Of a stretch of 40,138 bases of DNA, positions 5,286 through 32,789 are shown in pieces. The stretch lies in contig QBLX01000001.1 in assembly GCA_003241825.1 (NCBI GenBank), positions 1-40,138 on the forward strand, written 5' to 3'. This DNA is from Alphaproteobacteria bacterium (GTDB taxonomy: Bacteria; Pseudomonadota; Alphaproteobacteria; Caulobacterales; Caulobacteraceae). Numbering within the stretch: position 1 is the first letter of the stretch; each line of letters begins with the position of its first letter. The position numbers and the translations under genes are program-made. Below the pieces are notes generated by a model that saw only the letters and a list, made by a program, of their open reading frames with translations, did no database searches and was not told the origin of the DNA.

Positions 5286-5299
5286 TGGCACCGGTGTCA
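5286..5299. promoter_or_regulatory. Palindromic operator-like site A: TGGCACCGGTGTCA
   Basis: Near-perfect inverted repeat in the intergenic region before the 5426 ORF. Shares ACCGGTGTCAT (5290-5300) with three other promoter regions in this window. Confidence 0.65.
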
Positions 5300-5425
5300 T
5301 AGTCACTTTAGGCAATGAGCTGCGGGTAAGACAGTGGCGACACTCCGGACCGCTACCGCCGAACACCGTGGCTGGATCGCCGCATATGAAAGGGCGCGAG
5401 AGACGCCCTCAGGGGAGATGTAGCT

Positions 5426-8400
5426 ATGGGTTGGACAAACCCGCTTTTCGGCGCTGTGGCCCTGGTCGCCGCTCTGGTTCCAGCGGCGGCGGCCCGTGCG
5501 CAGGATGGCCTGCTGTTCCGTATGTCAGCGGATGAATCGCTGGTGGCAGATGTCGCAACGGGGCAGGCGGAGCCGACCTTCGCCGACCGGGTGTCAATCC
5601 GGGCCGCCGGCGGCGCAACGGGCGGCTATATCCAGGCCGAGGACGATCAGGTGCTGGCCTGGGCGGCCCCCGGCAATATTCTGGCGCAGCGCGGGGCCCT
5701 CTCCTTCTTCTGGCGATCGCGTTATCCGGTCGGGACAAACCCGTTCCCGCTGTTCCGCGTCAGCTATGCCAACCACTCGAGCTGGGACATGGTGTTCCTC
5801 CGCCTCGACTGGAACGGCAAGGGCTTCGACGGTTTCGTCACCGACTCCAACCTGGCACGCGTGAGGGTATCCTGGGATATGTCGGGCGCGCCCGCACCGG
5901 AGGCGTGGACCCATATCGCCTTTACGTGGGACGAGACCACCGGCGTCAAACTGTATGTCGATGGAAGGCTGGTCGCGCGCAAGGACCAGCCCGCCCTTCT
6001 CGACGCCGGGCTCGACCAGTTCGGGCCCCATAGTCGCATCATAAGCCCCATGCAGGTCCAGAGCCGGTACAATTTCCTGCGCGGGGGCGACCTCGACGAA
6101 CTGCGTATCTACGATCGTGCGCTCGACGACGCGGCCATCGCGGCGCTCGCCCGCCATGATACGCCGGTTGTATCCACGGCGGCACGCCCTGACTGGTCCG
6201 CGACCTGGGCTCGCCGTCTCGGTTTCGAAGGGGCTTCGCCGCCCTATCTGGCAGATGCCGAAACAGCGATCCGTCGCGTCGAGTTCACGGACCAGCGCGA
6301 CGTCGCCCAACGCATGTGGAAGGGCAATGACGGGGTGCGCGAAACCACATGGCCCGGCGTCTACAACCGCTCGCGTCTCGAAGGCCGCAACGACTATTTC
6401 CAGCTGCCGGACTGGAATGTCTATTCCACCGGCGGCAAGGCCGGGACGTGGTTCCTGCCCGATGAGTCCTGGAATCAGGTTGAGATTCAGGGTGCCGCTT
6501 TCGGTCGACTGTCGGCGCTCGCCGATGGCCGAACGCCCCGAGGCTCCGAACAGATAGTCGACGACGGCGACCTGCTGGCCCGCCGTCGCGAGGGGGTGGA
6601 ACGCACGACCACCCGCCTTTCCTCTGAACGCACCGGCGGAGCGGTCCGCTTCGTCAATGACGCCCCGGAGACTCCGATCGGAGAGATCGGAGTCTATCGC
6701 GTCTTTGCCGGGCGGGCTCCACAGGGGATAGGCCGGTTTGACTTCACAATCCGCGCCGACGCCGAACCAGAATTCGAAGCGACCCGGTCGCTGAGCGAAT
6801 TTATCGCCGGCCGTTACCCGATCGAAGAGCGCACGACTGTCGCCGCCCTGCCCTCCGCCGCGCCGTCGAGAGCGCGAAGCGCACCGATCAGCGATGCCCG
6901 GCCGATCGTGCATGTGGTCGTTCCCCAGGATTTCCGGCGGCAGCCGCCGGGTCTGCCGCTGAACCGGAACACGCCAGGCCTGGGGTATGAGAATTTCGGC
7001 GGTCTGGACGGGGTCGAACTTGGACTGCCAGCCATGAACCTCGAACCGGGCCGTGACGGACTGATCCCGCTCAACATCCGCGTCAAGGATCCCCTGACGC
7101 CGACGCGCGACCTGCTGGACATCAACGTGTCGGTCAAACCGAACGAGGCGCGCACCCTTTGGCTCGACACGCGCGACCGGGTCCTCCCATCCGGCGGGAG
7201 TCTGTATTTCACGGTCGCCTCCTCCAATCCTGATTTTGGCGCCGCAAGTCTGGACGGAGCGAAGGTCGGTCTCGTGTTCAAAGGCCGTGAGGACGCCCGG
7301 GCAGAGCACGAACGCGACCGGTTTGAGCAAGTGCGCGACAACTACGGCTTCCTTGTCGAAGAGCGGCAGACCAACCGGGACCTCGGCCTGTTTGCCCGCT
7401 TCTATGAGGACCTGACCGATCTGCTGAGGGTCAATCCCGAGCATCCCGGCGGTCAGCGCTACTGGAGCGAATGGAATCCGCAGCAGCCATTGCCCGCGGT
7501 CGTCGTTGAGTCCCCGCCCATGGGCGTTCCGGCCTGGGCATGGGGCCAGACCCGGGCGCTCAGACAGGCCGGCGACTTCGTGCAGTGGTGGATCGACAAT
7601 CGTCAGGTCGAAGGCGAATTCGGCGGCGGTCTGTCCGATGACACCGACCTGACCAACCAGTGGCCGGGCCTCGCCCTGATGGGCGTCGCGCCAGACAAGG
7701 TGAACGCCTCCCTGTCCGAGCTGGTCGAGGCCACCTATCGAAACGGCATGTTTACCCGCGGCCTCGGAACGATCGTCACCGACGAGCTGCATGTCTATGA
7801 AGAGGGCGTCAACGCGATCAGCCAGTCCGCCTACCTTAACCCCGGCGATCCGGTGACTGTGGCCCGGCTTATGGAGACTGCGGTTCGCTATCGGGACCTG
7901 ACGGCCGTCAATCCGCAAGGCCATCGGCTGTTTGTCAGCAACTACTACGGAGGCGATCAGATCGTCACCGAAGCGCCCTGGCAGTGGTCCAAACCCTATT
8001 CCTACCTGATCCTTCACCCAGGTATCCGGCTGGTTGACTGGAACGGCTCGCCCGAGCTGAAGCGGTTGCTCCTCGAACTGGCTGACGGCTACCTCGCGCA
8101 CGGACGCCAGGATGCGCTGGGCAAATGGACCTATCCTACCGAGATCAACTGGCCGGACGGTGCCACTCGCGGAAGCGCCGGACCTCAGCAGACCAATCTT
8201 CTGATGTGGGCGGCCTATCGCTGGACCGGTGACGCGAAATATATGCGCCCCATTGAGCAGGTACTGCTTGAAGGGGGCCCTAACGCCCTGACGGGCACGA
8301 TCAACGGCGATCTCGCCGAGGCACTAAGCCGCCCAGAGCTGCGGGGCGCCTCGACAGCGGGAGCGCTCGCGCCGAACGCTTCGAACACAGCCCTGCACTT

Positions 8401-9235
8401 CGCCTGGGCTGCGACTGGCGACAAGACCTACCTCGAGCGGCTGTACGACCGGATGCGGCGCACGGCCCAGTTCCGCATGCCCATGATGACCGACGATCAC
8501 TGGTGGGTAGACCGGGTCGAAATCCCGACCCAGGAGCTCCAGCGCCAACGCCTGGGCGGAATCGCGCTGTGGCGAAACGCCATCGTACAGGGAAATTTGG
8601 TCAGCTGGCGCTTCGCCGGAGCGGATGACGCCGGGCAACTCGGCATTCTTGTGCGCGAACCCACCCGGACCGGCTTTCGGATCGTCGCTCACAATCTGTC
8701 GGATCGCCCGATCTCCGCCCATCTCGCCGGTGCCGAGATCGCCACCGGTTCGTGGTCGATGCGGCAGGGCATGGATGCGGACGGCGACGATGTCGCTGAC
8801 GCACCGGGTGAGGTCGCTCGCATGGAGTTTGGCCGAGACCGTGTGATCGATCTCGAGTTCGCGCCCGGCGCGACGACCGTGATCGAACTCAGGCTAGACG
8901 GCCCTGAGTCCGATATCCGCAACCGACCAGACCTCGCCCTCGCCGCGTCCGATGTCAGGTGGCGGGGCGGGACGCTGGAGACTGCAGTGCATTCGCTGGG
9001 GTCACGCCCCGCGGTCGACGGCCTGCTTCGGCTCGAAGACGCCCGGGGCGCAGTTCTGGTCGAAGCGCGAATCCCGGACCTGGCCGCGCCCGACGACCTC
9101 CTTCCCAAACACGTCACAGTGCGCCTGCAGCCGCCGGCCGGGGCGGATATGACGGGCGCAAGCGTGCGCGTCGTGCTGCCGGAGCCGGAAGTCAGCGTAA
9201 TGAACAATCACGCACCCGTTCCGCCCGGCGGCTGA
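5426..9235 (+). CDS. Large secreted protein, LamG/concanavalin-like N-terminal module plus alpha/alpha-toroid-like C-terminal region; putative polysaccharide-active enzyme of unknown specificity
   Basis: 1269-aa ORF with signal peptide (LVPAAAARAQ). LamG-like stretch (ALSFFWRSRYP..WTHIAFTWDETTGVKLYVDGRLVA..DELRIYDRALDDAAIAAL). Trp-rich helical repeats resembling toroid glycan-active folds (FGGGLSDDTDLTNQWPGLALMG..TNLLMWAAYRWTGDAKYM). Confidence 0.75.
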   Translation: MGWTNPLFGAVALVAALVPAAAARAQDGLLFRMSADESLVADVATGQAEPTFADRVSIRAAGGATGGYIQAEDDQVLAWAAPGNILAQRGALSFFWRSRYPVGTNPFPLFRVSYANHSSWDMVFLRLDWNGKGFDGFVTDSNLARVRVSWDMSGAPAPEAWTHIAFTWDETTGVKLYVDGRLVARKDQPALLDAGLDQFGPHSRIISPMQVQSRYNFLRGGDLDELRIYDRALDDAAIAALARHDTPVVSTAARPDWSATWARRLGFEGASPPYLADAETAIRRVEFTDQRDVAQRMWKGNDGVRETTWPGVYNRSRLEGRNDYFQLPDWNVYSTGGKAGTWFLPDESWNQVEIQGAAFGRLSALADGRTPRGSEQIVDDGDLLARRREGVERTTTRLSSERTGGAVRFVNDAPETPIGEIGVYRVFAGRAPQGIGRFDFTIRADAEPEFEATRSLSEFIAGRYPIEERTTVAALPSAAPSRARSAPISDARPIVHVVVPQDFRRQPPGLPLNRNTPGLGYENFGGLDGVELGLPAMNLEPGRDGLIPLNIRVKDPLTPTRDLLDINVSVKPNEARTLWLDTRDRVLPSGGSLYFTVASSNPDFGAASLDGAKVGLVFKGREDARAEHERDRFEQVRDNYGFLVEERQTNRDLGLFARFYEDLTDLLRVNPEHPGGQRYWSEWNPQQPLPAVVVESPPMGVPAWAWGQTRALRQAGDFVQWWIDNRQVEGEFGGGLSDDTDLTNQWPGLALMGVAPDKVNASLSELVEATYRNGMFTRGLGTIVTDELHVYEEGVNAISQSAYLNPGDPVTVARLMETAVRYRDLTAVNPQGHRLFVSNYYGGDQIVTEAPWQWSKPYSYLILHPGIRLVDWNGSPELKRLLLELADGYLAHGRQDALGKWTYPTEINWPDGATRGSAGPQQTNLLMWAAYRWTGDAKYMRPIEQVLLEGGPNALTGTINGDLAEALSRPELRGASTAGALAPNASNTALHFAWAATGDKTYLERLYDRMRRTAQFRMPMMTDDHWWVDRVEIPTQELQRQRLGGIALWRNAIVQGNLVSWRFAGADDAGQLGILVREPTRTGFRIVAHNLSDRPISAHLAGAEIATGSWSMRQGMDADGDDVADAPGEVARMEFGRDRVIDLEFAPGATTVIELRLDGPESDIRNRPDLALAASDVRWRGGTLETAVHSLGSRPAVDGLLRLEDARGAVLVEARIPDLAAPDDLLPKHVTVRLQPPAGADMTGASVRVVLPEPEVSVMNNHAPVPPGG

Positions 9236-9359
9236 GAGGTTGCAGTCGCCAGGTCGAAGGCCGTCCTGCCCTGCCTGAATACAGGAAACGGACGTCGTAC
9301 GAGCCGCGTCAGTTTCGCTCGCTGCCATCGTCATCGTCCGCCTATGAGACCTGCCCCTA

Positions 9360-9373
9360 GGAAACCGGTGTCA
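9360..9373. promoter_or_regulatory. Palindromic operator-like site B: GGAAACCGGTGTCA
   Basis: Contains ACCGGTGTCAT at 9364-9374, about 70 nt upstream of the 9440 pectate lyase-like gene. Confidence 0.6.
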
Positions 9374-9439
9374 TAGGTGGTTATGCTCTGCGCGGTACAG
9401 GGCCGCTAGAGCCATCCCAAGGGACCGATCGGAACGCTC

Positions 9440-11065
9440 ATGACGATTAAATTGAACCGCCGCACGCTATTGTCCGCCACAGCCGCGACCGCATTCGCTG
9501 CATCGGCACCTGCTCTGGCTGAAAGCTCCGTCCCTACGCGGTCTTCCGTTCTGACCGCCATGAAACGCGCGACGACGTTCATGGTCGAAGAGGCCTCGGT
9601 CGGTGGCGGTTATGTGTGGCAGACCCTGCCGGACTTTTCGCGTCGATGGGGCGAACTCGAGGCTTCACCGACCATGATCTGGGTGCAGCCGCCAGGCACT
9701 GCGACCATGGGCCATGTGTTCCTCGACGCCTATCATGCCACAGGCGACGAAACCTACTACACCGCCGCCAAGTCCGCCGCCGACGCCCTCATCAGGGGCC
9801 AGCACCCAAGCGGTGGCTGGAACTACGTCATTGATACTGTCAGCGAGGACAACCTCAAGCGCTGGTACGAGACCTATGGTCAGAACGCCTGGCGAATGGA
9901 AGAATTCCAGCGCTACTACGGCAACGCCACCTTTGACGACGCTGGCACCGCCGAGGCATCCCAGCTCATGCTGCGGATGTTCGCCGAGAAGCGCGAGCGC
10001 CGCTACAAGGCTGCACTGGACAGGGCGCTCGGATTTGTCCTCGACAGTCAGTATGCGAATGGCGGGTGGCCCCAGCGCTTTCCGCACGTCGAGCACGCGG
10101 GCCTTTACGGGCATCAGGACTACACCGGCCATATCACGTTCAACGATGACGTCGCCGGCGAGAACCTGAAGTTCCTGATCTATGCCTATCAGGTTCTGGG
10201 CGAACCGCGCCTTCTCGACGCAGTTCAACGCGGCATGGACATATTCGTTGCCACCCAGCAGCCAGCGCCCCAACCCGCCTGGGGCCTGCAGCATTTCGCC
10301 GACACCCTGAAGCCAGCCGGCGCACGAACCTACGAACCCCAGGGTTTCGCCACCCACACTACGGCGACCAATCTACGCTCGATGATGGACTTCTATCGCC
10401 TGACCGGCGACCGCAAATACATTGCCCGGATACCCGAGGCGCTGGACTGGCTGGACGCCGTCGCCACCCCTCCCGCCCTTCGCGGGCCCGGCCGCACCCA
10501 CCCGACCTTTGTGCTCGAGGGGTCGAATACGCCCGTCTATATCCATCGCCGTGGTTCCAATGTCGTCAACGGCGAATACTTCTACGACGCCAGCCCGACT
10601 GACGTGGTCGGCCACTACGGCTCTTTCCGTAACCTCGACACCGCCGCCATCCGCGCCGAGTATGCAGCTGCAGCCGCACTTTCGCCCGAAGATGTCAGTC
10701 GCGGGTCGCCGTTAAAGGCCAGGATGGGCACCCTGGCCTTGCCTCGATACTTCACACTCAGGGACGTCAGCGTCTGGGACATGGGGTCCGACGCCCGGCG
10801 GGCCACCGAACCTGCAGCCGCCCGGGTCACGTCCGTTGTTGCCGCGCTGAATGCCCGCGGCTACTGGCCCAGCCTTCTGACCACCACGTCCAACCCGTTC
10901 ATCGGAGATGGTCCGACGATCCCGACCGGCGGAGAATATCGCACCACCCGCGTCGGCGATGTCTGGGACACCTCTCCCTGGACGACCGACACACCTGTTG
11001 AGGGCGTATCGACTCAAGTCTACATCAGGAACATGGGTGACCTGATTGAGGCGCTGATCGATTAG
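9440..11065 (+). CDS. Pectate lyase family 10-like (PelA/pectic acid lyase) protein, Tat-like signal
   Basis: NRRTLLSATAATAFAASAPALA leader; GGYVWQTLPDFSRRWGE; GGWNYVIDT; NGGWPQRFP; DYTGHITFNDDV; ARTYEP. Paralogous to 12678-14273 and shares motifs with the short PL10 at 30961. Confidence 0.82.
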   Translation: MTIKLNRRTLLSATAATAFAASAPALAESSVPTRSSVLTAMKRATTFMVEEASVGGGYVWQTLPDFSRRWGELEASPTMIWVQPPGTATMGHVFLDAYHATGDETYYTAAKSAADALIRGQHPSGGWNYVIDTVSEDNLKRWYETYGQNAWRMEEFQRYYGNATFDDAGTAEASQLMLRMFAEKRERRYKAALDRALGFVLDSQYANGGWPQRFPHVEHAGLYGHQDYTGHITFNDDVAGENLKFLIYAYQVLGEPRLLDAVQRGMDIFVATQQPAPQPAWGLQHFADTLKPAGARTYEPQGFATHTTATNLRSMMDFYRLTGDRKYIARIPEALDWLDAVATPPALRGPGRTHPTFVLEGSNTPVYIHRRGSNVVNGEYFYDASPTDVVGHYGSFRNLDTAAIRAEYAAAAALSPEDVSRGSPLKARMGTLALPRYFTLRDVSVWDMGSDARRATEPAAARVTSVVAALNARGYWPSLLTTTSNPFIGDGPTIPTGGEYRTTRVGDVWDTSPWTTDTPVEGVSTQVYIRNMGDLIEALID

Positions 11066-11102
11066 GCCTTGCAGGGGAGAGCCCCCTTCCAGCCTTGCCA
11101 CT

Positions 11103-12470
11103 CTAGGGCAGGGTCTCCTCACGGGCACCGTCCAGGCGCGGCGGAGCGGCATAACTGCGCGCTGACGCAGCGACGTATTCCGCGAACTCATCCGGCGTCT
11201 TCAGCACCTCACCCTCGGACCAGCCCGCAACCAGCATGTAGCGGTAGGTCCGGTCCGCCTGTGCAGGTATCCGGAACACGTGATTACCACCGCGCGCCTC
11301 GACGAACTGATAGGCGGGCTGATCGCTCGGGGGCACGATGAGGGCGGTGCCCGCATAGAGGATGGGGGCCAGTTGTTGGAGCCCCTCCACATCGTCCGGA
11401 TTGCGCAAGGCTTCCGGTGCTGCCGAGAGGACTGAATTCTGCGTGCGGCGCTCGAAATTCTGGCCCGGTCGACGACGGATCCCTACGGCAAGATCGGCGC
11501 CCTGGGCTCCCGGCTCCCATGTCAGGAACCGCACCTCGGCCGTGGTGTAGTTCTGACCAGCGTAGGCAGTGTAGGTTTGTTCCAGCTCGTAGCGGCCCTG
11601 GCCAGTGTTCCAGTTCATCGTCCGGATCCTGACCATGCTGCGAAGCGGACCATTGACCAGCACCTCGAAGGCATAGCGGGTATCCGAGACCTGTCCGCCA
11701 TTGAAGCGGTTCGCGACATCGGCACCCGGGCTGAAGCGCGGACGTGCAAGGACATCGCCCTCGAACACACCGATGCCGCCGCCGCCGAAACTGTCGTCCA
11801 CCGACTGGATGTCGGCCCCGTAGTCTGGGTTCTCGGTGGCAACCCCGTAACCGTCCAGATTTCCCATGTAGAGACGGTTCGACATCAACAGACCCCGGCG
11901 CTTGCCATAGATATCGACATCGGTCGGGAACCACAGTTTCCATCCGACGTGCTCGCTCTCCCAGAAGGGTGCGAGGTGGCGCATGTAGCTGCCGATCGCC
12001 CCATGGGTCCGATGCGCGTTCCAGCCCCTTGGTTGAAAGCCCCGGTAGATGTGGAAGCGTTTGCGCTCTCCGGCCTTGAGGTCGGCCACGAAAAATAACT
12101 CATCCCAGATCCCGTCTCGGTCGAGGTCGTCGAACTGATAGTCGATCGCGCGGCCATTGGTTTCCGCACGGCGTTCGTGAGGCCCCTGACTGGCCAGCAG
12201 TTCCGGGGAAGGCTCGGATCTCGGCTGACCTGAAGGATCGACCAGGGAGACGGCGAGCTCATGGATATCTGCGAGCATTGGCAACTGATCACGTCGGATG
12301 ATGATCGGCGCATCCTTGCGGTCTTCGTCCAGATCATTGGCAATGACGATCTCGACCCTGGACAGGGGCAGGAAGTCATACTCGGCATACCAGCCGTCCT
12401 GGGCCGCGGCAGAGGTGGCGCCCGACATGCTCACCATGACGGCAGCCACGAGCCATGATGAACGCGCCAC
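11103..12470 (-). CDS. DUF4861-like secreted protein of unknown enzymatic activity
   Basis: Mature sequence WYAEYDFLPLSRVEIVIANDLDEDRKDAPIIIRRDQLP..FELLVNGP-type region resembles the DUF4861 family. Start set to GTG at 12470: AAGGAGG sits 4 nt upstream and a signal peptide follows (VARSSWLVAAVMVSMSGATSAAAQ). Confidence 0.72.
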   Translation of the reverse strand: MARSSWLVAAVMVSMSGATSAAAQDGWYAEYDFLPLSRVEIVIANDLDEDRKDAPIIIRRDQLPMLADIHELAVSLVDPSGQPRSEPSPELLASQGPHERRAETNGRAIDYQFDDLDRDGIWDELFFVADLKAGERKRFHIYRGFQPRGWNAHRTHGAIGSYMRHLAPFWESEHVGWKLWFPTDVDIYGKRRGLLMSNRLYMGNLDGYGVATENPDYGADIQSVDDSFGGGGIGVFEGDVLARPRFSPGADVANRFNGGQVSDTRYAFEVLVNGPLRSMVRIRTMNWNTGQGRYELEQTYTAYAGQNYTTAEVRFLTWEPGAQGADLAVGIRRRPGQNFERRTQNSVLSAAPEALRNPDDVEGLQQLAPILYAGTALIVPPSDQPAYQFVEARGGNHVFRIPAQADRTYRYMLVAGWSEGEVLKTPDEFAEYVAASARSYAAPPRLDGAREETLP

Positions 12471-12530
12471 CAGGCCTCCTTGTCGGTACCGGGCGACCTG
12501 GGGAAGGCGATCGTCGAGACGCTCAGAGAA

Positions 12531-12544
12531 AACCACCGGTGTCA
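12531..12544. promoter_or_regulatory. Palindromic operator-like site C: AACCACCGGTGTCA
   Basis: Contains ACCGGTGTCAT (12535-12545), about 65 nt upstream of the corrected start (12470) of the minus-strand DUF4861-like gene. Confidence 0.6.
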
Positions 12545-12677
12545 TTTTCACTCTCCGTGGCGCAAGGCCAGTTAACCTGTCTGAATGGTCCCGAAAGGAC
12601 CCGCATGGCCCATCCGATCCCTCACTGCCCAGCAGACCGGCCCTGGCCTGACCGCCCCGCCCGAACACATCCCCGTC

Positions 12678-14273
12678 CTATGGTGCGATGTCGCGCAGGG
12701 CACTGATCAGGCGGCTCATGTTGTTGATGTAGGTTCCTGTCGAAATCCCGATGGGCCCGGATGCGAGGGTAAAGGGTGAAGTGTCCCATTCGTCGCCGAC
12801 CTGACCGTTATCGACGAAGCCGGGAGGTGGCTCTGAAGGCCCGGGGCCGCGATAGGGATGGCTGGTCGAGCGTAGCTCCTGTGGCCAGAACCCGTCCGCA
12901 TTCAGTCCCGCAACCAGTTCTGCGGCTCCTAACGCCCTGTTCTGGGCTGCAGTTACGTTCAGATCCGAACCGCCGACGTCGCGTGTGATCCAGTATCGGG
13001 GCATTAATGACGGGCCGCTTCCGGCTAAAGGGGACCCAGCGCTCGCCTGTTCCGGCGACATGGCGGAAAGGCGCTGGAGGCGCTCTTGTAACCGGTCGAC
13101 ATCAATCCGCTTTTCGGCCCGTTTTCCGGTGATGTCGTAGCCGCGGTAATATTCCCCGTTCTGGGCGTTCGAGCCACGGCGACCGCCGCCGATGAAGCGG
13201 TTGGTGCCTGCCTCTACATAGCGGAAGTAGTTGAGCCCGTTCCGATGGGCCTCTACTGGAGCCTCGACCAGACGCAGCCAGTCGAGGGCCTCCGGGACTC
13301 TGGCCAGGAAGGTGGGGTCACCGGTCAGTTCGAAGAAGTCCATCAGCTTGGTGAGTGCGGCCGCCGTGGTGTGAGGCGACAGGGCCTTCGGCTCATAGGT
13401 GCGCGCAGCGGCGGGCTGCAGGTCCAGTGTGTATTGCATGGAGAACCCGGGCGAAGGCATCGGCTGCTGAAGCGCGATGTAGCAAGCCATCGCCCGCTCG
13501 ATCGGATCTCGCACCCGTTCGTTTCCCGTCTGCTGCAGGACCAGCAGCAGGAAGTCGATGTTGGTCTCGGCGACCTCGTCATTCAGGGTGATGTAGCCGG
13601 TGTAATCCGGCCGGCCATGGTTGTTGAAAGCCGCGGCCTTCGGCCATCTCTGGGGCCAGCCACCAACCGGGTACTGGCTGTTGAGCACGAACGAGACGGT
13701 CCGGTCGACCGCCTCCATGAACCGGGGCTCGTTCTTCTCGAGATACAGGCGCAACAGAAAGCTTCCGCACTCAACCGTCGCATGATCATCGAATGTGGCA
13801 TTGCCGTAGTAGTGCTGGAATTCCTCCAGCCGCCAGCCGTTGCGGCCGATGGTTTCGTACCAGCGCTTCAGCGACTCCTCGCCGTTGAAATCGATGATGT
13901 AGTTCCAGCCACCGCTCTCATGCTGGCCAGCGATCAGAGCGTCACCAGCCTTTACGGCGGCATCGTAATAGAGCGCCTCGCCCGTGGCATGAAAGGCGTC
14001 GAGAAAAATCTGGCCCATCTCCGGGGTGCCGGGAGCCTGTGTCCAGATCATGCTCGGCCAGGCCTCCATTTCGCCCCAGCGGCGGGAAAAATCGGCGAGA
14101 TAGGACCAGACATAGCCACCGCGCGTGGCAACCCGGTCCGTCATGAAGCTCGTCGCTCGGCGCATGGTCGCTGCGATCGCGTCAGAATCGGGTGCCTGTG
14201 GCGACCATCCGCCGACCGCGACCGCGATGGGGGTGATCGAGGCACTCACCAGCAAGGTTCGCCGAGACAGCAT
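12678..14273 (-). CDS. Pectate lyase family 10-like protein, paralogue of 9440-11065, Tat-like signal
   Basis: MLSRRTLLVSASITPIAVAVG leader; GGYVWSYLADFSRRWGEMEAWPSMIWTQAPGTPEMGQIFLDAFHATGE; GGWNYIIDF; GGWPQRWP; DYTGYITLNDE; ARTYEP. Start at 14273 supported by GGAG-AACTTTG-ATG. Confidence 0.82.
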   Translation of the reverse strand: MLSRRTLLVSASITPIAVAVGGWSPQAPDSDAIAATMRRATSFMTDRVATRGGYVWSYLADFSRRWGEMEAWPSMIWTQAPGTPEMGQIFLDAFHATGEALYYDAAVKAGDALIAGQHESGGWNYIIDFNGEESLKRWYETIGRNGWRLEEFQHYYGNATFDDHATVECGSFLLRLYLEKNEPRFMEAVDRTVSFVLNSQYPVGGWPQRWPKAAAFNNHGRPDYTGYITLNDEVAETNIDFLLLVLQQTGNERVRDPIERAMACYIALQQPMPSPGFSMQYTLDLQPAAARTYEPKALSPHTTAAALTKLMDFFELTGDPTFLARVPEALDWLRLVEAPVEAHRNGLNYFRYVEAGTNRFIGGGRRGSNAQNGEYYRGYDITGKRAEKRIDVDRLQERLQRLSAMSPEQASAGSPLAGSGPSLMPRYWITRDVGGSDLNVTAAQNRALGAAELVAGLNADGFWPQELRSTSHPYRGPGPSEPPPGFVDNGQVGDEWDTSPFTLASGPIGISTGTYINNMSRLISALRDIAP

Positions 14274-14460
14274 CAAAGTTCTCCAGTCCAACTGGACGCC
14301 GATCTTTTCAACTCAGGTCAGGCGTCGCGCACTACACACCGATCACTTTTTGACTCAAATCACAGCGGCGCCGTGCGAACGGTCGACGCTGGTAGCCTGG
14401 TTCCGCCAGTTCCGGATGATTGGCGTCCCGAAGTCCGCCGCCAGAATCGCAGAGAAAAAT

Positions 14461-14489
14461 GGAGCGTCGTCCTTTCAGGACGACGCTCC
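14461..14489 (-). terminator. Rho-independent terminator of the TonB-dependent receptor gene
   Basis: Perfect 12-bp inverted repeat ggagcgtcgtcc-tttca-ggacgacgctcc. On the minus strand it is followed by ATTTTTCTCT, and it lies just 3' of the minus-strand ORF ending at 14542. Confidence 0.85.
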
Positions 14490-14541
14490 AGTCTGGACAG
14501 TCCCTAGGAGGAATACTGTCCGTCCCCGGAGGGATCGAGAA

Positions 14542-17500
14542 TCAGAACGTGAAACGGGTTCCGATGAAGTACTGGCGGCCCGTCTTGCCATAGCTCGAGG
14601 CGACGGGATCGTCCTGATAGGCCCAGCGGCTGTCGACCTGATCCGTGAGGTTCAATGCTTCGGCCGTGAGAGTGATGCTGTCCGTTATCTTGTAGGTGAA
14701 CGACGCGTCGACATTGAGAGTCTCGTCCGAACCCACGAAGTCGTTGATCAGCGGCGAGTCACACTGACCGGGATCACAGGTGCCTGCCGCAAGCGGGTAT
14801 TGCGTTTGATACCCTGCACGATACGCGGCCGAAACACGGGCGCTCCAGCGTTCGACCTCGTAGAAGACCGTCGCATTGAAGCTGTCTGGCGAGGCACCCA
14901 GGAATGGTGCCGTGCCGGTCAGGTTTCTGGCCGGATCGAGGATGTATTCCAGTTCCGAAGAAATGTGGGTGTAGTTCGCCTGAACGCCAAGGTTCGACCA
15001 GAAGCCCGGCAGGAAGGTCAGGTTCTGCTGATAGATAAGCTCGTAGCCGGTGAGCGTGCCGCCCGGTGCATCGTTGAACTGGCGCACCGAGAACGGAAGA
15101 TTCTGATCGATGTAGGCCCGCCGACTGTCGGAAGCGATGTCGGTCAGCCCGTCGAAGGCAAGCCGCAGATTGGCGATCGCGTCCGCATCAAACAGATCGG
15201 TCAGCTGGGCTTCGCGCAGAACGACTTGCGGGAAGCTGTTGATCTTCTTGTGGAAGACCGCCACCGAAATGAGAGCGTCAGGCGCGAAATACCACTCGAC
15301 ATTGAAATCGAGGTTATCAGCCCGGAAGGGCTTCAGTCGCGTGTTGCCCAAGGTGATTGCCGCGTTGGAGCCGTCAAACTGGGCAGGTGCCGCACCGATC
15401 CCGATGGGGACGTTGAAGCCTGTCACGCCCGGTTGAAGGGAAAGTAGCTGTGGCCGGGCCATGACCTTGGCAGCAGCAAAGCGGAACAGCAGCTTGTCTG
15501 ACCATTCGTAGATCAGGTTCATCGACGGCAGTGTGTCGGTATAGTCGTTGGTATTTTCGACGGGACGTCCGCTCGGAGACCGGCCTGCTGCCTCGACGCT
15601 TGTCTCGGCAATCCGCACGCCGAAATTACCACGCAGATCGCGTCCGAAAAGCGGCTGCACGAAATCGACCTGGGCATAATAGGCGGTATCGGTCTCATCG
15701 ACCCGGAAGGTGTTCACCCCGCCGTTGCGCAGGTCGGACAGGCGCCAGTCACCCCAGTCGTTGATGCAGTCGCAGTTGAAGCCGAACCGCTGCTGGAAGG
15801 CTTCCAGATTGGGCGCGAAGAACGACGTCGGCGTGCCGGCGGGCACATCGAGGCCGAGACCCCAGTTCACCACCTGACCCATCTGGCCAACGGTCGTGGA
15901 TGGCGCAAGGCCTGTGCGGACCCCTTCAAGCAAGCTCGGGTTCTGGGTATCGGCGATGAGCCGCTCGAAACGGGTGTAGAAGAAGTCAAACTTCCGCTGG
16001 CCCGCCCCAAAACGCAGCGTGTAATCCGGCGTTATGTCCCACGCGATATCGATCTTGGCGGCTTCGTAGCCGTTCTCGGTGACCGTCCGGAAATGACGGA
16101 GGGAGGAGTATCCCTTCACGAAATCCCAGTTGTTCGGATTGGCCGTATCAAAGCCGAAATTCATGACGGGGATGTCGCCGCCGCCGCGCGCGTCGAAGAC
16201 GAAATAGTCGTTTCCTGGCGTGCCGTTTCCTGAGTCGAGGCGGATGAAGTCGACCAGTTGCCCGGTATTCACGTTGCTGGAGCTTGACCGCCCTAACAGC
16301 GCCACCATGCGGAGGGTGTCGCTGAACTCATGCTCGATGTTGATCGAGTTTTGCTGGAACTCTGTTGTGAAGGCACCCTGATCGACTGCCGAACGCATGT
16401 CGACGCGCCCGAGCTTCAGATAGTTGGCCTGCGTGCCCGAATCACTGAGCCCCGCGTCAATCAACTGAACCGATGGCCGCCCGATGAACGGACCGCGCAT
16501 GGCCAGGAAGTTCGGATGAGGTACATATCCGACTGAGGTCGGCTGGTTGTAGTAGTCGTAGACTTCCAGATTATTCGGATTGAAGCTTCCGACGGTCGCC
16601 CCGAGGTTGTTTACGTTAGCGCCCGGCGCTGTATTGAAGACACGGTTTGTCCCATACCTGGTCTGACCGCAATCTATGGCATCACGAAAATCGGTAGCGG
16701 CTTGAGTTGCGCAGTTTGGATATGCTCCCCGACGATTTACATAGCTGTTATTCGCAGAACTCGTCGTCGGGAACGTTTGATAGCTGAAAGCCGACGCCGT
16801 TCGATTACCGTTGGTGTTATTTCGATTCAGACCAACGGGGCCAAGCTGATAGTTGGTCGAACTCTGGGTCGCCTCGGAATACAGATTGTCGAAACTGATC
16901 GTCGTGCGATCGGTCGGGCGCCACTGGAACGACAGTGTCGCTCCGAGGCGCTCCTGCTCGATCTCGCGATGCTGCAGCGATGCGAGGGAGGGGATCCGCA
17001 CCAGGGATTGCCGATAGTTGTTGGGGCCATACAGAAGCTGGTAGGCCGCCGGATTCGAGCCGATCAGGAAGCTGAGCGCTTCAGGATTTGTAACTCGAGA
17101 AATCACCAGAGCCGGATTGACGTTGGTGGGCAGTGCAAAGCCCTGCGGATCGCCGGCAGCCGTTGCTGCCGCGTTATTGAAAGTTGACCCGCGGTACGTG
17201 TACTCGTTGCTGCCAACCGCCCTGAAGAAGCTGTCGGTTGTCTGCTTGCGCTCATTGTAGGCAAGCGAACCCAGAACGCCTAACTGGCCGAATGGGGTGT
17301 CCCAACGCTTCGACCCGAGCAGGGCCACACGTGGGTTGTGAGAGCCGCCGTTCTCGTAATAGGCATCCTGCAGCGAGAGTGCGAAACGCTGGCCGGAGTA
17401 GTCGAAAGGCCGCCCGGAAATCAGGTCTACAGTCGCACCGAGACTGCCCTCGTCTGTCTGCGCATCGGCAGATTTCTGCACTCTCAAGGAGTTGAAGAGC

Positions 17501-17946
17501 TCGGACGCGAACGTATTGAATGAAAACCCACGGTCACGGCGCAGGGCACCGTCAGCGTTGCTGGCACCCGACGTCGACAGGGTTTCGAGACCGTTCAACC
17601 GAACGCGGGTGAAGTCGCCGCCCAGGCCCCGAACCGAGATCTGGTTTCCCTCGCCATTCTCCCGGTCGATCGAGACACCCGGCAAACGTTGCAAAGACTC
17701 TGCGAGGTTTGCGTCCGGGAAGTCGGCTATATCTTCTGCATTGATGACATCGACAATGGTGTTGGACCGTCGCTTGTCGACAAGCGCGCTGGCCAGCGAT
17801 CCTCGAATGCCGGTGACGATGATCTCGTCCACCGTATCTTCCTGCGCTGGCTGCGATTGGGCGAATGCCGGCAGAGCCATTGCGGAAAAGGCCGCGCAAA
17901 GTGCAACGCAAGATGCGGACCGCAGATATAGCGAAGAAATTCTCAT
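14542..17946 (-). CDS. TonB-dependent receptor
   Basis: 1134 aa; signal peptide; DEIIVTGIRGSLASALVDKRRSNTIVDVINAEDIADFPDANLAESLQRLPGVSIDRENGEGNQISVRGLG plug; C-terminal QYFIGTRFTF beta-barrel end. Confidence 0.96.
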   Translation of the reverse strand: MRISSLYLRSASCVALCAAFSAMALPAFAQSQPAQEDTVDEIIVTGIRGSLASALVDKRRSNTIVDVINAEDIADFPDANLAESLQRLPGVSIDRENGEGNQISVRGLGGDFTRVRLNGLETLSTSGASNADGALRRDRGFSFNTFASELFNSLRVQKSADAQTDEGSLGATVDLISGRPFDYSGQRFALSLQDAYYENGGSHNPRVALLGSKRWDTPFGQLGVLGSLAYNERKQTTDSFFRAVGSNEYTYRGSTFNNAAATAAGDPQGFALPTNVNPALVISRVTNPEALSFLIGSNPAAYQLLYGPNNYRQSLVRIPSLASLQHREIEQERLGATLSFQWRPTDRTTISFDNLYSEATQSSTNYQLGPVGLNRNNTNGNRTASAFSYQTFPTTSSANNSYVNRRGAYPNCATQAATDFRDAIDCGQTRYGTNRVFNTAPGANVNNLGATVGSFNPNNLEVYDYYNQPTSVGYVPHPNFLAMRGPFIGRPSVQLIDAGLSDSGTQANYLKLGRVDMRSAVDQGAFTTEFQQNSINIEHEFSDTLRMVALLGRSSSSNVNTGQLVDFIRLDSGNGTPGNDYFVFDARGGGDIPVMNFGFDTANPNNWDFVKGYSSLRHFRTVTENGYEAAKIDIAWDITPDYTLRFGAGQRKFDFFYTRFERLIADTQNPSLLEGVRTGLAPSTTVGQMGQVVNWGLGLDVPAGTPTSFFAPNLEAFQQRFGFNCDCINDWGDWRLSDLRNGGVNTFRVDETDTAYYAQVDFVQPLFGRDLRGNFGVRIAETSVEAAGRSPSGRPVENTNDYTDTLPSMNLIYEWSDKLLFRFAAAKVMARPQLLSLQPGVTGFNVPIGIGAAPAQFDGSNAAITLGNTRLKPFRADNLDFNVEWYFAPDALISVAVFHKKINSFPQVVLREAQLTDLFDADAIANLRLAFDGLTDIASDSRRAYIDQNLPFSVRQFNDAPGGTLTGYELIYQQNLTFLPGFWSNLGVQANYTHISSELEYILDPARNLTGTAPFLGASPDSFNATVFYEVERWSARVSAAYRAGYQTQYPLAAGTCDPGQCDSPLINDFVGSDETLNVDASFTYKITDSITLTAEALNLTDQVDSRWAYQDDPVASSYGKTGRQYFIGTRFTF

Positions 17947-18071
17947 GGTCTCCCCCGGTTGTTTCCCAATCCGGCCCGACGCCTCTTACGAGCGTTCGAC
18001 CGGGTTTCCCGCTCGGCTTTTCACCGAGACAGTCGAAAAGTATGATTATAAGACATTGCAGTCAAACCTTT

Positions 18072-18085
18072 TGTCACCGGTGTCA
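18072..18085. promoter_or_regulatory. Palindromic operator-like site D: TGTCACCGGTGTCA
   Basis: 13/14 palindrome upstream of the TonB receptor start (17946). Shares CACCGGTGTCATTTTC exactly with site C. Confidence 0.65.
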
Positions 18086-18319
18086 TTTTCTGATTGTGTG
18101 ACGAGCAGGTGACCGAACGCCCTCTTCAACGGCGTCAGCCATGCCGTGAATCCAGACAGCACAATGTACGTAAATCCCGACAAGACCTTGCCCGCGCCGG
18201 CCAGAACTCGCCAACGCTCGCCTCCGGCCTGACTGCGGACGAACGGCTTCACTCCCTGCGGCTGAGCGACTGAAACGGTGATTGCAACTCAGCCAATTCC
18301 GAAGCTCGCGCGGTAAGCC

Positions 18320-23288: not shown

Positions 23289-24293
23289 ATGATCGACGAC
23301 GACCGCAAACCGACCATCGGTGATGTGGCTCGCCTTGCAGGCGTATCGCCGATGACTGTGTCGCGCGTCATCAACGAGAGCGCGCGTGTCAGGCCCGAAA
23401 CCAGAACCAGGGTCGAGACTGTGATCGCCGCTACGGGCTACGCGCCAGACCCGGCAGCAAGGATCCTTGCAAGGGCCGGAGCCGGTCGGATCGGGCTGCT
23501 GTATGCAAACCCAAGCAATGCCTATCTGGCCGAGGTGCTGGCGGGTGCCCTGTCAGGTGCGCGTGCCGCCGGTCTGTTTCTATTGATTGAGCCATCCCGC
23601 GCCGGAGACCCGGTCGCAGAACGTCTGGCCGTCTCTCGCCTCGTAGCCGGTGGAGCCCAAGGCCTGATCGTACCGCCTCCGCTCGGAGAATCCCCTGCGA
23701 CGCTGCAGGCGATTTCGAAGGCGGGCTTGCCTGCCGTGGTTCTGGCGGCACCCGCGCACCTTGCCGACCTCGTCAGCCTGCGCGTCGACGACAGCGCAGC
23801 GGCTCGCCAGATGACCGAGTATCTCATGAGCCTCGGCCACAGATGTATCGGCTTCATTCAAGGGCCGGACGACCAGAGCGCGAGCGCGGAGCGTCGGAGG
23901 GGGGCAGAAGAAGCCGTGGCGCTGCAGCCCGATGCCCGGCTATCAGTCGTGGCAGGGGACTTCACGTATCGCTCCGGGCTGGAGGCGGCTCGTGTCCTGC
24001 TGGCGCAATCACCGAGACCGACCGCGATCTTTGCCAGCAACGACGACATGGCTTCGGGCGCATTGGCGGCGATTCACGGTGCCGGACTGGACACTCCGGG
24101 GGATGTGTCCGTTGCCGGCTTTGATGACAGCTATGTTGCAGCCAGTTCCTGGCCCACCCTGACCACCATCCGCCAACCCGCAGCAGAGATGGCGCACGAG
24201 GCGGCCATTCGCCTGGCTCGACCGGGGGACGCACCCCTGCCGGTACGGCATTTGCTGATTATCCGGGAAAGCACCGCCCCCGTCGCCGATTGA
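23289..24293 (+). CDS. LacI-family transcriptional regulator (candidate XylR)
   Basis: PTIGDVARLAGVSPMTVSRVINESARVRPETRTRVETVIAATGYAPDPAAR HTH; periplasmic-binding-like C-terminus FASNDDMASGALAAIHGAGLDTPGDVSVAGFDDS. Confidence 0.93.
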   Translation: MIDDDRKPTIGDVARLAGVSPMTVSRVINESARVRPETRTRVETVIAATGYAPDPAARILARAGAGRIGLLYANPSNAYLAEVLAGALSGARAAGLFLLIEPSRAGDPVAERLAVSRLVAGGAQGLIVPPPLGESPATLQAISKAGLPAVVLAAPAHLADLVSLRVDDSAAARQMTEYLMSLGHRCIGFIQGPDDQSASAERRRGAEEAVALQPDARLSVVAGDFTYRSGLEAARVLLAQSPRPTAIFASNDDMASGALAAIHGAGLDTPGDVSVAGFDDSYVAASSWPTLTTIRQPAAEMAHEAAIRLARPGDAPLPVRHLLIIRESTAPVAD

Positions 24294-24313
24294 CATTCGC
24301 CATCCCGCTAGTG

Positions 24314-24329
24314 ATGTTACCGCTAACAT
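24314..24329. promoter_or_regulatory. LacI-type operator ATGTTACCGCTAACAT upstream of the xylX-like gene
   Basis: 16-nt inverted repeat with one mismatched pair and a central CG, as in LacI-family operators. Lies between the lacI-type gene and the xylX-like start. Confidence 0.65.
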
Positions 24330-24338
24330 ATCGCCAGA

Positions 24339-25487
24339 ATGCCGATGCGGGTGCCCTTGAAACTGATCAACGACATGCCCGAAGACTGGCGCGACGGGTT
24401 CTTCATGGGGCGGTTGCTGCTGGCCGAAGGCCCGACGCCGGTCGTTGTCCGGGGCGGTGAGGTTTTCGACATTTCCGCGACCGCGCCCACGACTGCCCAA
24501 GCCATTGCAGAAGGTGGTCTGGAGGCTCTGGTCGGGCCGTCGCTGGGTCGGCTCGAAGATCTGAACCTGACAGACACCTCCACCATTCCACGCCTGCTTT
24601 CGCCGCTGGACCTTCAGTGCGTGAAGGCGTCGGGCGTCACGTTCGCCGTCTCTGCCATTGAGCGCGTGATCGAGGAGCGGGCCCGAGGTGACGCCGCGGC
24701 GGCGCAGACCATCCGTGCCAGGCTCGCTGATCGGATTGGCGCCGACCTGTCGGCGGTAAAGCCAGGTTCCGCCGAAGCCATGGCCCTCAAGGTCGTGCTG
24801 ATCGGCGAAGGCTTGTGGTCGCAATATCTCGAGGTGGCTATCGGGAAGGACGCAGAAATCTTCACCAAGGCACCTGTTCTTGCCTCGGTCGGCTGGGGTG
24901 ATCAGGTCGGCGTAAGGTCCGACAGCGACTGGAACAATCCCGAGCCCGAGGTCGTCCTCATCTGCGATCCTGACGGTCAAGCCATCGGCGCGGCGCTGGG
25001 GAATGACGTCAATCTGCGAGACGTGGAAGGGCGGTCGGCGCTGCTGCTGGGCAAGGCCAAGGACAACAATGCGTCCGCTGCCGTCGGCCCCTGGATCCGG
25101 CTGTTCGACAAGAGTTTCGGGATCGATGATGTCCGGGACGCGATTGTGTCACTGAGCGTCAACGGGGACGACGGCTTCGAGCTTACGGGCCAGTCATCCA
25201 TGCGTCTGATCAGCCGCGATCCGCTTGACCTTGCAGCGCAGACCCTGTCGTCGTCGCATCAGTACCCCGACGGGTTCGCCCTTTATCTTGGCACCATGTT
25301 CGCGCCGATCGACGACCGCGACGCACCCGGCGAAGGGTTCACCCACAAGGCTGGCGATCGGGTCTGCGTGTCGTCGCCCAGGCTTGGTACCTTGCGAAAT
25401 ACGGTCGCCGCTTGCGAGGACGCCCCTCCCTGGACGTTCGGCATATCCGCCTTGATGGCCAACCTGGCAGGGCGGGATCTGTTGTGA
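24339..25487 (+). CDS. xylX: Fumarylacetoacetate hydrolase-family 2-keto-3-deoxy-pentonate dehydratase, XylX-like
   Basis: KASGVTFAVSAIERVIEERARGD..LWSQYLEVAIGKDAEIFTKAP..GWGDQVGVRSDSDWNNPEPEVVLICD..GNDVNLRDVEGRSALLLGKAKDNNAS..HQYPDGFALYLGTMFAPIDDRD. Recognised as like the Caulobacter XylX family, with pathway context. Confidence 0.82.
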   Translation: MPMRVPLKLINDMPEDWRDGFFMGRLLLAEGPTPVVVRGGEVFDISATAPTTAQAIAEGGLEALVGPSLGRLEDLNLTDTSTIPRLLSPLDLQCVKASGVTFAVSAIERVIEERARGDAAAAQTIRARLADRIGADLSAVKPGSAEAMALKVVLIGEGLWSQYLEVAIGKDAEIFTKAPVLASVGWGDQVGVRSDSDWNNPEPEVVLICDPDGQAIGAALGNDVNLRDVEGRSALLLGKAKDNNASAAVGPWIRLFDKSFGIDDVRDAIVSLSVNGDDGFELTGQSSMRLISRDPLDLAAQTLSSSHQYPDGFALYLGTMFAPIDDRDAPGEGFTHKAGDRVCVSSPRLGTLRNTVAACEDAPPWTFGISALMANLAGRDLL

Positions 25488-26242
25488 GCAGCGCGATCTA
25501 CCCTTCCCTGCGAGGCCGGCTGGTGGTGGTCACCGGTGGAGGCAGCGGCATCGGCGCCGCCCTGACCGAAGGCTTTGCTCGCCAGGGAGCGAGGGTTTTC
25601 TTTCTCGATATTGCCGAGCAAGCCTCGCAGGCCCTCAAGCAAGACCTGACAGGTTGCGATCCGCCGCCCGAATTCCGCGCCTGCGACTTGCAGAATATCG
25701 AGGCCCTTCAGGCCACCCTTTCTGACATCAATGTCGACCATGGGCCGATCGATGTTCTCGTGAACAACGCTGCCAATGACGACCGGCATGCTCTTGCCGA
25801 CGTCACCCCGGCCTATTGGGACGAGCGCATCGGGGTCAATCTGCGTCACCTCTATTTCGCGGCCCAGGCGGTTGCGCCCGGGATGAGGGATCGGGGCCGG
25901 GGCGTGATTCTCAATCTCGGTTCCATCAGCTGGCACCTCGGTTTGCCAGACCTGTCGATCTACGAAACAGCAAAGGCTGGCATCGAGGGCATGACACGGG
26001 CTCTTGCGCGCGAACTTGGAACGGACGGCGTCCGGGTCGTCTGCATCGTTCCTGGCAATGTGCGAACGCCCCGCCAGATGCAATGGTACACGCCCGAGGG
26101 AGAGGCGGAGATCGTCGCCGCGCAATGCCTGAAGGGCCGGATAGAACCGATGGATGTCGCGGCTCTTGCGCTGTTTCTGGCCTCGGACGACGCTCGCTAC
26201 ATCACGGGCCACGAGTATTTTCTGGACGCTGGCTGGCGTTAG
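25484..26242 (+). CDS. xylB: SDR-family D-xylose (or L-arabinose) 1-dehydrogenase, XylB-like
   Basis: Start GTG 25484 overlaps the xylX stop (GTGA). SSAIYPSLRGRLVVVTGGGSGIGAALTEGFARQGARVFFLDIAEQ..VNNAANDDRHALADVTPAYWDERIGVNLRHLYFAAQAVAPGM..GSISWHLGLPDLSIYETAKAGIEGMTRALARELG is highly reminiscent of Caulobacter XylB. Confidence 0.87.
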   Translation: MSSAIYPSLRGRLVVVTGGGSGIGAALTEGFARQGARVFFLDIAEQASQALKQDLTGCDPPPEFRACDLQNIEALQATLSDINVDHGPIDVLVNNAANDDRHALADVTPAYWDERIGVNLRHLYFAAQAVAPGMRDRGRGVILNLGSISWHLGLPDLSIYETAKAGIEGMTRALARELGTDGVRVVCIVPGNVRTPRQMQWYTPEGEAEIVAAQCLKGRIEPMDVAALALFLASDDARYITGHEYFLDAGWR

Positions 26243-26284
26243 CCGGTCGTCACAATAACGGGCCGAAAGGGTCCACGGGGGAGA

Positions 26285-27724
26285 ATGGGCATGGCAGGAT
26301 CAACGGGAGGATCAGGTCCGGATATTGCGGGCAACGAGGAGGTCAACATGGCCTTCATTGCCCTGATCGTCGCTGTGGCGACGATCGGCGGATTTATGTT
26401 CGGCTATGACTCCGGGGTCATCAATGGAACCCAGGAAGGGCTGGAAAGCGCCTTCAACCTTTCAGCGCTTGGAACGGGCTTCAACGTCGGGGCCATCTTG
26501 CTGGGCTGCGCGGTCGGCGCCTTTGTCGCCGGGCGGCTTGCCGATCTCTCCGGACGCAAGACCGTCATGCTCATTGCCGCTGTGCTGTTCATCGTGAGTG
26601 CCCTCTGGGCTGGAGCGGCGAACTCCTCAGCCCATTTCATCATGGCTCGCTTCGTCGGTGGCCTTGGGGTCGGGGCAGCCAGTGTGCTGGCACCGGCCTA
26701 TATCTCGGAAGTCACGCCGGCATCGATGCGTGGACGGCTGTCCAGCGTGCAGCAGATCATGATCATCACGGGCCTGACGGGTGCCTTCGTTGCCAACTAT
26801 TCGCTTGCCGCAACAGCCGGCGGATCGACTGCTGAATTCTGGCTGGGCTTCCCTGCGTGGCGCTGGATGTTCTGGCTGCAGGTCGTGCCTGCGACGATCT
26901 ATCTGTTTGCCCTGCTGCTCATTCCCGAGAGCCCCCGCTTCCTCGTTGTGAAGAACCGCGAGGCCGAGGCAGAAGCCGTTCTGGCCAAGCTGTTTGGCGC
27001 TGCTACTGGCGCGCGCAAGGTCGCGGAAATCCGCGCCTCGCTTGCCGCCGACCACAAACCGAGCTTCCGGGACCTGCTGGATCCGATAACACGCAAGGTG
27101 CGCCCGATCGTATGGGCTGGCCTGATCCTCGCCGTCTTCCAGCAGCTCGTCGGGATCAACATCGTCTTCTATTACGGAGCGACCCTGTGGCAGTCCGTGG
27201 GCTTTTCCGAGAACGACGCCCTGTTGATCAATATCGGCTCGGGCGTTCTTTCGATTGTCGCTTGCCTCGCCGCTGTTTCGGTCATCGACAAGATAGGGCG
27301 CAAGCCTTTGCTCCTGATTGGATCGGCCGGAATGTTCGTCACCCTGGCTGTTGTCGCCTGGTGCTTCTCTCAGGCCCAGACTGTCGACGGCGCGGTTGCA
27401 CTTCCCGACTCGGTCGGACTCGTCGCTCTGATCGCTGCCAATGCGTACGTCGTCTTCTTCAACCTGAGCTGGGGGCCCGTGATGTGGGTCATGCTGGGTG
27501 AAATGTTCCCGAACCAGATGCGCGGCTCCGCACTCGCCGTCGCTGGTTTCGCCCAGTGGATCGCCAACTTTGCCATCTCTGTCAGCTTCCCGACCATGGC
27601 TGCGGGCCTCGGCCTGCCGCTGACCTACGGTTTCTATGCCGCCAGTGCACTTGTCTCCTATTTCCTTGTTCAAGCTTGGGTAAAGGAAACAAGGGGCCGC
27701 GAACTGGAAGACATGACCGGCTGA
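26285..27724 (+). CDS. MFS sugar porter (xylose/arabinose transporter-like)
   Basis: GGFMFGYDSGVINGTQEGL; GRLADLSGRKTVML; PAYISEVTPASMRGRLSSVQQIMIITG; FQQLVGINIVFYYGATLW; IDKIGRKPLLLIGSAGM; PESPRFL: sugar porter signatures. Start could be 26291. Confidence 0.93.
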   Translation: MGMAGSTGGSGPDIAGNEEVNMAFIALIVAVATIGGFMFGYDSGVINGTQEGLESAFNLSALGTGFNVGAILLGCAVGAFVAGRLADLSGRKTVMLIAAVLFIVSALWAGAANSSAHFIMARFVGGLGVGAASVLAPAYISEVTPASMRGRLSSVQQIMIITGLTGAFVANYSLAATAGGSTAEFWLGFPAWRWMFWLQVVPATIYLFALLLIPESPRFLVVKNREAEAEAVLAKLFGAATGARKVAEIRASLAADHKPSFRDLLDPITRKVRPIVWAGLILAVFQQLVGINIVFYYGATLWQSVGFSENDALLINIGSGVLSIVACLAAVSVIDKIGRKPLLLIGSAGMFVTLAVVAWCFSQAQTVDGAVALPDSVGLVALIAANAYVVFFNLSWGPVMWVMLGEMFPNQMRGSALAVAGFAQWIANFAISVSFPTMAAGLGLPLTYGFYAASALVSYFLVQAWVKETRGRELEDMTG

Positions 27725-27740
27725 CCTCCACTTCCCTTGT

Positions 27741-27765
27741 CCGGCGGCGCTCCCCCCGCCGCCGG
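27741..27765. other. Intra-operon GC-rich hairpin
   Basis: ccggcggcg-ctccccc-cgccgccgg, 9-bp perfect stem and 7-nt loop, between the transporter stop and the next gene start; no T-tract. Confidence 0.55.
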
Positions 27766-27788
27766 CTCCAGCTTGCCAGGACCCTGCC

Positions 27789-29231: not shown

Positions 29232-29234
29232 GCG

Positions 29235-32028: not shown

Positions 32029-32789
32029 GGGCCGCGCGAACGGACCTTTTCCGCCTCGACCCGCTCAAAGCCAGCCTCGATGACAGCGAGCATGGCGGAC
32101 GCAGCGGCAACTGAATCAGATGCCTCGATGCAATCCACGATCCGCTCGTGAGCATTCACGGTCTCGCGGTGCAACTGCGCGCTTCGGGTCGGAGGACTGA
32201 GCGTAAACGCCTCGAGCAGTGCCGTCTCGATCACGCTGGCCAGGGACCGCATCATGGGGTTCTGGGATGCTATGGCGATCCGCAAATGCAGTTCCAGATC
32301 GGCCCGTGCAAACGCATACTCCGAGGCCTGCTCGCGGCGCATCAACTCGATAGCCTCGCGCATTCCGACCAGATCATCCGCACTGCGATGTCTGGCTGCC
32401 AGGGCAGCAGCAGCTGGTTCCAGCGCGCGCCTGACCTCTGCCAGATGTCGCCTGAAATCAGCGTCCATGCCGTTGGCGACCTGCCAGGCGAGGACTTCCG
32501 TATCAAAGAAATTCCACCTCATGGGATCGGTGACCTTGGTCCCGACCCGCGTCTTCACAATCAGAAAGCCCTTGGCTGAAAGGGTTTTAAGCGCCTCCCT
32601 CAGTGCGGTTCTGGAAACGCCGAAGCGTTCAAGCAACTCAGCCTCAGCAGGAATCTTCGCGCCGGGAGGGATCTCCCCTCTCAGGATTTCCTGGCCCAGG
32701 GATCGCACTATCTGATCATGACTTGAGACCGTCTGGCGAGCGCTCCGAGCGCCTCCAGCATAGCTCGTCGTGTTTCGTGGAGCCTCCAT
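32025..32789 (-). CDS. GntR-family transcriptional regulator, FadR/FCD subfamily
   Basis: SLGQEILRGEIPPGAKIPAEAELLERFGVSRTALREALKTLSAKGFLIVKTRVGTKV wHTH; FCD C-terminus with EVRRALEPAAAALAA..DLELHLRIAIAS..AHERIVDCIEASD. Confidence 0.94.
   Translation of the reverse strand: MEAPRNTTSYAGGARSARQTVSSHDQIVRSLGQEILRGEIPPGAKIPAEAELLERFGVSRTALREALKTLSAKGFLIVKTRVGTKVTDPMRWNFFDTEVLAWQVANGMDADFRRHLAEVRRALEPAAAALAARHRSADDLVGMREAIELMRREQASEYAFARADLELHLRIAIASQNPMMRSLASVIETALLEAFTLSPPTRSAQLHRETVNAHERIVDCIEASDSVAAASAMLAVIEAGFERVEAEKVRSRGP

Follow-up and report, generated by a model that had tools for sequence, protein, structure and literature searches.

Putative operators of a KdgR-like LacI-family repressor at polysaccharide-degradation loci of Caulobacteraceae

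The window, a 40,138-nt stretch of DNA from a member of the Caulobacteraceae, encodes a secreted 1269-aa protein with a LamG-type domain (PF13385; 5426-9235, plus strand), a PL10-like Pec_lyase protein (PF09492; 9440-11065, plus strand), a DUF4861 protein (PF16153; 11103-12470, minus strand) and a TonB-dependent receptor of the TonB-Xanth-Caul subfamily (TIGR01782; 14542-17946, minus strand). The minus strand also encodes a second PF09492 protein (12678-14291), whose gene follows the TonB gene after 250 nt and may possibly belong to one operon with it. The preliminary description had reported an identical 11-mer, ACCGGTGTCAT, at 5290-5300, 9364-9374, 12535-12545 and 18076-18086, with an expected chance count of 0.02. 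Indeed, the 11-mer was exact at all four positions, and 100 dinucleotide shuffles of the sequence gave a mean of 0.02 copies and never four.

Each 11-mer lies within a 14-bp site, namely site A (TGGCACCGGTGTCA, 5286-5299) upstream of the LamG gene, site B (GGAAACCGGTGTCA, 9360-9373) upstream of the PL10-like gene, site C (AACCACCGGTGTCA, 12531-12544) upstream of the DUF4861 gene, which starts near 12470, and site D (TGTCACCGGTGTCA, 18072-18085) upstream of the TonB receptor gene, which starts at 17946; the second PF09492 gene would then also lie behind site D. The centre-to-start distances calculated from these coordinates (133.5, 73.5, 67.5 and 132.5 nt for A to D) agreed with those given previously, and the flanks described as common to A and B (ACCGGTGTCATAG) and to C and D (CACCGGTGTCATTTTC) were likewise present. 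The sites had also been described as near-palindromes. As judged against the 14-bp consensus TGACACCGGTGTCA, this is accurate for A and D, with one mismatch each, and weaker for B (two mismatches) and C (three), since the arm ACCGGTGTCA is fixed in all four sites while the opposite arm is degenerate.

We then investigated whether the sites are retained upstream of the orthologous genes in related genomes. A start-proximal operator (up to three mismatches) was found in all nine LamG orthologues examined, against a chance expectation of 0.0045 per 150 nt; no relatives of the LamG protein were detected when viruses were searched. The window PL10-like gene was found in 26 other genomes of the family. 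Of 24 orthologues, 20 have an operator some 60-205 nt upstream, where chance would give 0.008 per 200 nt, and two further orthologues carry one 55 nt upstream of the start according to a separate gene call. Operators were also found 52-155 nt upstream of the relatives' TonB receptors whose best match in the window genome is the window receptor. Thus, the earlier assignment of each copy to a separate pectin-block gene holds for A, B and D, and is weak for site C, which is not conserved: it has the lowest matrix score (14.2), similar to that of stray matches, and is uncertain because both DUF4861 orthologues found lack an operator upstream (0/2). The DUF4861 frame opens with an ATG (MTPVVFSERL...) that site C (12531-12545) overlaps, and a start annotated at this upstream ATG would hide the site within the gene. 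A GTG start at 12470 appears plausible, being closely preceded by AAGGAGG and followed by a signal peptide.

The search was extended to the genome itself, using pattern searches and selected stretches of the 2.93-Mb assembly, which is 98% complete. As a result, ten exact copies of the 11-mer were detected, against one for the reversed control, and the palindrome at up to two mismatches occurred at 18 places, against five for its control. Eleven strong sites fall into three loci, the window (sites A-D) and contigs C22 and C156, and define the operator as an even inverted repeat with a CG centre (consensus TGACACCGGTGTCA), with perfect copies at C22:7307 and C156:20266 and an invariant central ACCGGT. 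According to a codon-usage gene call, all 11 are intergenic or at gene edges, and they cluster at uronate loci rather than being equally common within genes or upstream of unrelated genes. Other exact or near matches, at C9:6241 (beside an ABC-type gene), C24:3118 and C120:12146, have neighbours without an evident uronate role.

The C22 locus (operators at 7307, 7340, 12442 and 13832) has the following gene order: a PfkB kinase of the KDG-kinase type (kdgK) and a TonB receptor gene on the minus strand, two operators, a PelZ-like lyase gene on the plus strand, TRAP transporter components including DctM and DctP and then an FAH-type hydratase on the minus strand, followed by an operator, a LacI-family gene (plus), another operator, and kduI and kduD (both plus). 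The preliminary description had proposed looking across the genome for uronate-catabolism or lacI genes with the motif upstream, and here the lacI gene lies between two operators, the second of which precedes kduI-kduD. Operators are also placed before the lyase genes and before the TonB gene ahead of kdgK. The two operators in the interval from which the TonB and PelZ-like genes diverge (C22:7307-7353) are separated by 33-34 bp, a spacing kept across genera, and this pair may bind its regulator cooperatively. On C156, where operators are located at 13155, 20266 and 22652, the genes encode an aldose epimerase, a GH88 enzyme, a PF05426 lyase-type protein, a TonB receptor and a 618-aa protein. 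Both KDG-pathway and polymer-degrading genes are therefore preceded by operators, as expected of a KdgR-type regulon.

The LacI-family gene of C22 (12767-13810, plus strand; PF00356 and PF13377 above cut-off) is one of five in the genome, and its closest named orthologue, from Brevundimonas variabilis, is 94% identical, which makes Brevundimonas or a near relative the probable source of the window. Its recognition helix, VSKKTVSR, differs from the two others extracted (VSPMTVSR for the LacI protein encoded in the window and VSISTASR for another), and all the listed orthologues carry VSKKTVSRVIN. The preliminary description had suggested a LacI-type operator with a cognate regulator possibly outside the window; both suggestions were borne out, as the CG-centred palindromes track a LacI-family gene, and this gene lies on C22 amid genes for pectin and uronate breakdown. 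The four repeated sites of the window are, judging from their sequence and distribution, very probably LacI-type operators. The nearest LacI gene to sites A-D is the in-window one (23289-24293, plus strand), and its product could bind them in a purely local regulon. We consider this very unlikely, given its different recognition helix, its situation in an oxidative pentose-type block, and a separate palindrome, ATGTTACCGCTAACAT, which adjoins it at 24314-24329 as described previously; we place both the gene and this palindrome outside the regulon. This lacI gene and ATGTTACCGCTAACAT head a block (23289-34780) of FAH, SDR, sugar transporter, aldehyde dehydrogenase and SMP-30 lactonase genes, with a dehydratase-like gene at 32909, which resembles an oxidative pathway of the L-arabinose type under a LacI switch of its own.

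The assignment of the sites to the C22 regulator was further examined by comparing their occurrence across 119 family genomes, in which the orthologues of this LacI share at least 54% identity with it. The orthologue was present in 52 genomes, 51 of which carry at least two operators, compared with one of the 67 genomes without it (Mann-Whitney p=4.7e-22, uncorrected for shared ancestry); the mean number of operators at up to one mismatch per genome was 5.1 with the orthologue and 0.31 without it. Within the window's genus, the orthologue and the operators alternate together in presence and absence. Genomes with other LacI relatives (E<=1e-40) and without the C22 orthologue have zero or one operator, which also argues against the in-window LacI protein as the regulator. 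PF09492 was found in 37 genomes of the family, 36 of which carry the LacI orthologue, and between two and seven operators persist in each of the 16 genomes that carry the orthologue but lack PF09492, indicating that the sites follow the regulator and not this enzyme. Relatives of the LamG gene were present in 14 other family genomes, all of them with the LacI orthologue. A single genome (G045) has two operators at up to one mismatch and no LacI match at E<=1e-40, an exception that may reflect an assembly gap or loss of the regulator.

In addition, 80 named loci with the LacI orthologue (from Brevundimonas, Caulobacter, Rhizomicrobium, Rhodospirillales and others) yielded 64 operator matches at up to one mismatch, whereas palindromes of permuted half-sites gave a mean of 0.2 and a maximum of three. 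The genes adjacent to the sites in other genera (54 scanned) included 19 TonB Plug, nine carboxylesterase, eight Pec_lyase and three MFS genes, together with GH43, GH127 and GH106, while some sites in relatives fell within genes or had an alanine dehydrogenase, sigma factor or dnaX gene nearby. The exact repetition of an 11-mer at several places could also suggest a mobile or structural repeat element instead of operators. This explanation is highly improbable, since conservation is limited to 14-16 bp between unrelated flanks, the sites are mostly start-proximal (54 of 65, compared with 40% for random positions), and the presence of the repeat follows one regulator gene.

The placement of the operators relative to promoter-like elements, which were judged by eye and with a simple score, was then compared. 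Operator A overlaps the promoter-like TTGGCA-17-TTAGGC, and the site at the FAH gene of C22 overlaps TTGACA-18-CATGCT. The footprint of the TonB promoter in relatives consists of a -35-like TTGC and a conserved -10-like TTAGGC, followed at once by the first operator and about 34 bp further on by the second. At the lacI-proximal site, GGAAACCGGTGTCAA, the complement TTGACACCGGTTTCC provides a -35-like TTGACA on the opposite strand as part of a perfect half-site. Operators that overlap -35/-10-like elements or directly follow a -10-like box are suitably placed for repression. The same C22 protein could instead act chiefly as an activator, or as a dual regulator such as Cra and CcpA in the LacI family; in line with this, the start is well downstream of some operators, and the lacI-proximal site precedes the promoter-like box of lacI by 20-38 nt. 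Either role is nevertheless unlikely in view of the arrangement at the best conserved promoters, and SucR of Caulobacter crescentus (PMC11897816), a LacI-type protein that represses a TonB-receptor operon for sucrose, offers a precedent for repression.

With considerable confidence, we propose that the sites are operators of a KdgR-like LacI repressor, the product of C22:12767-13810, which would control uronan uptake and catabolism in response to a KDG-type inducer. The sequences show the sites, where they lie, how they are conserved, how they co-occur with this LacI and which genes make up the regulon; that the protein itself binds, that it represses instead of activating, and what its effector is are inferred. 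A LacI dimer would bind ATGACACCGGTGTCAT-like CG-centred palindromes that overlap or abut the promoters of the TonB receptor genes, the polysaccharide lyase genes, the TRAP transporter operon and the kduI-kduD operon, and thereby keep them repressed. Degradation of uronic-acid polymers would generate an intracellular product common to the substrates, and this inducer, most likely 2-keto-3-deoxygluconate (KDG) or a near precursor to judge from the gene content, would release the repressor, so that uptake and catabolism are derepressed together. As KduI and KduD lead to KDG and KdgK removes it, KDG would, from this pathway, be the natural signal common to the uronan loci.

The 618-aa protein of C156 (15743-17599 of that stretch) bears on the breadth of the regulon. 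It gave no sequence match in Pfam, NCBIfam or the PDB, and relatives were found in four of 118 other family genomes. Its AlphaFold model, built from five sequences only (mean pLDDT 68, pTM 0.67), has beta-sandwich strands after an alpha-helical domain. Its best Foldseek matches were the uronan lyases GAGase II, PL33, PL8 and PL17, with E values as low as 4e-9 and TM scores near 0.5. The model points to a uronan lyase with a GAG/alginate-lyase-like fold, and the protein possibly represents an unclassified polysaccharide lyase family. The pectin regulon proposed in the preliminary description thus stands as a polysaccharide-degradation regulon, for which the pectin label is too narrow, since C156 contributes the GH88 enzyme, the PF05426 lyase and this predicted lyase fold. 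A wider reading, to which we assign somewhat less than an even chance, is that one LacI repressor and its operator, conserved in Caulobacteraceae and some related Alphaproteobacteria, would form a general uronan regulator that senses a catabolite common to pectin and non-pectin uronans (KDG or a precursor) and switches on several separate polymer loci, among them one in which a TonB receptor is accompanied by a polysaccharide lyase not classified before.

Related systems are known. In enterobacteria, the IclR-type regulator KdgR governs the pectinases jointly with kduI, kduD and kdgK and responds to KDG as its inducer. The C22 regulon would likewise unite pectinase-type enzymes and kduI, kduD and kdgK under one regulator; however, this regulator belongs to the LacI family and lacks the IclR-type HTH, and its operator also differs, so the two are analogous and not homologous. 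LacI-family control of uronan degradation is also exerted by AlgO, the alginate regulator of Sphingomonas sp. A1. We take PDB 7cdv/7cdx, titled only "LacI-type transcription factor", to be AlgO; its similarity to the C22 protein is distant (E 4e-18), and it is not the closest solved structure. SucR resembles the C22 regulator as a LacI-type regulator of a TonB-dependent receptor operon from the same bacterial family, but acts on one local promoter in response to sucrose, whereas the C22 protein is assigned to at least three loci and to uronates. LacI regulons with CG-centred palindromes are, according to Ravcheev et al. 2014 (PMC4052901), a standard kind in Proteobacteria, with ExuR, KdgR, UxaR and UxuR as the uronate groups; shared features there include an even CG-centred palindrome, mostly 30-140 bp upstream, a regulator beside its target operons, and uronate catabolism. 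Its main text names no pectin regulon, and the Caulobacterales passages concern GluR and BglR. PMC5507952 concerns other regulators. Searches of the literature by motif, regulator, taxon and substrate found no description of the C22 LacI-operator pair; RegPrecise entries and supplements were beyond their reach, and a prior listing is possible.

The C22 LacI-operator regulon is therefore well supported and conventional, of a kind already known, with the pair itself apparently undescribed in the searchable literature. As the regulatory design is conventional, its value lies in annotation and testability and not in surprise. The analysis assigns a regulator, an operator and a target set to the use of uronate polymers in Brevundimonas, Caulobacter and related genera, and the operator provides a sequence handle for finding TonB receptors and lyases for uronans that have yet to be characterised, by which the 618-aa protein of C156 was found.
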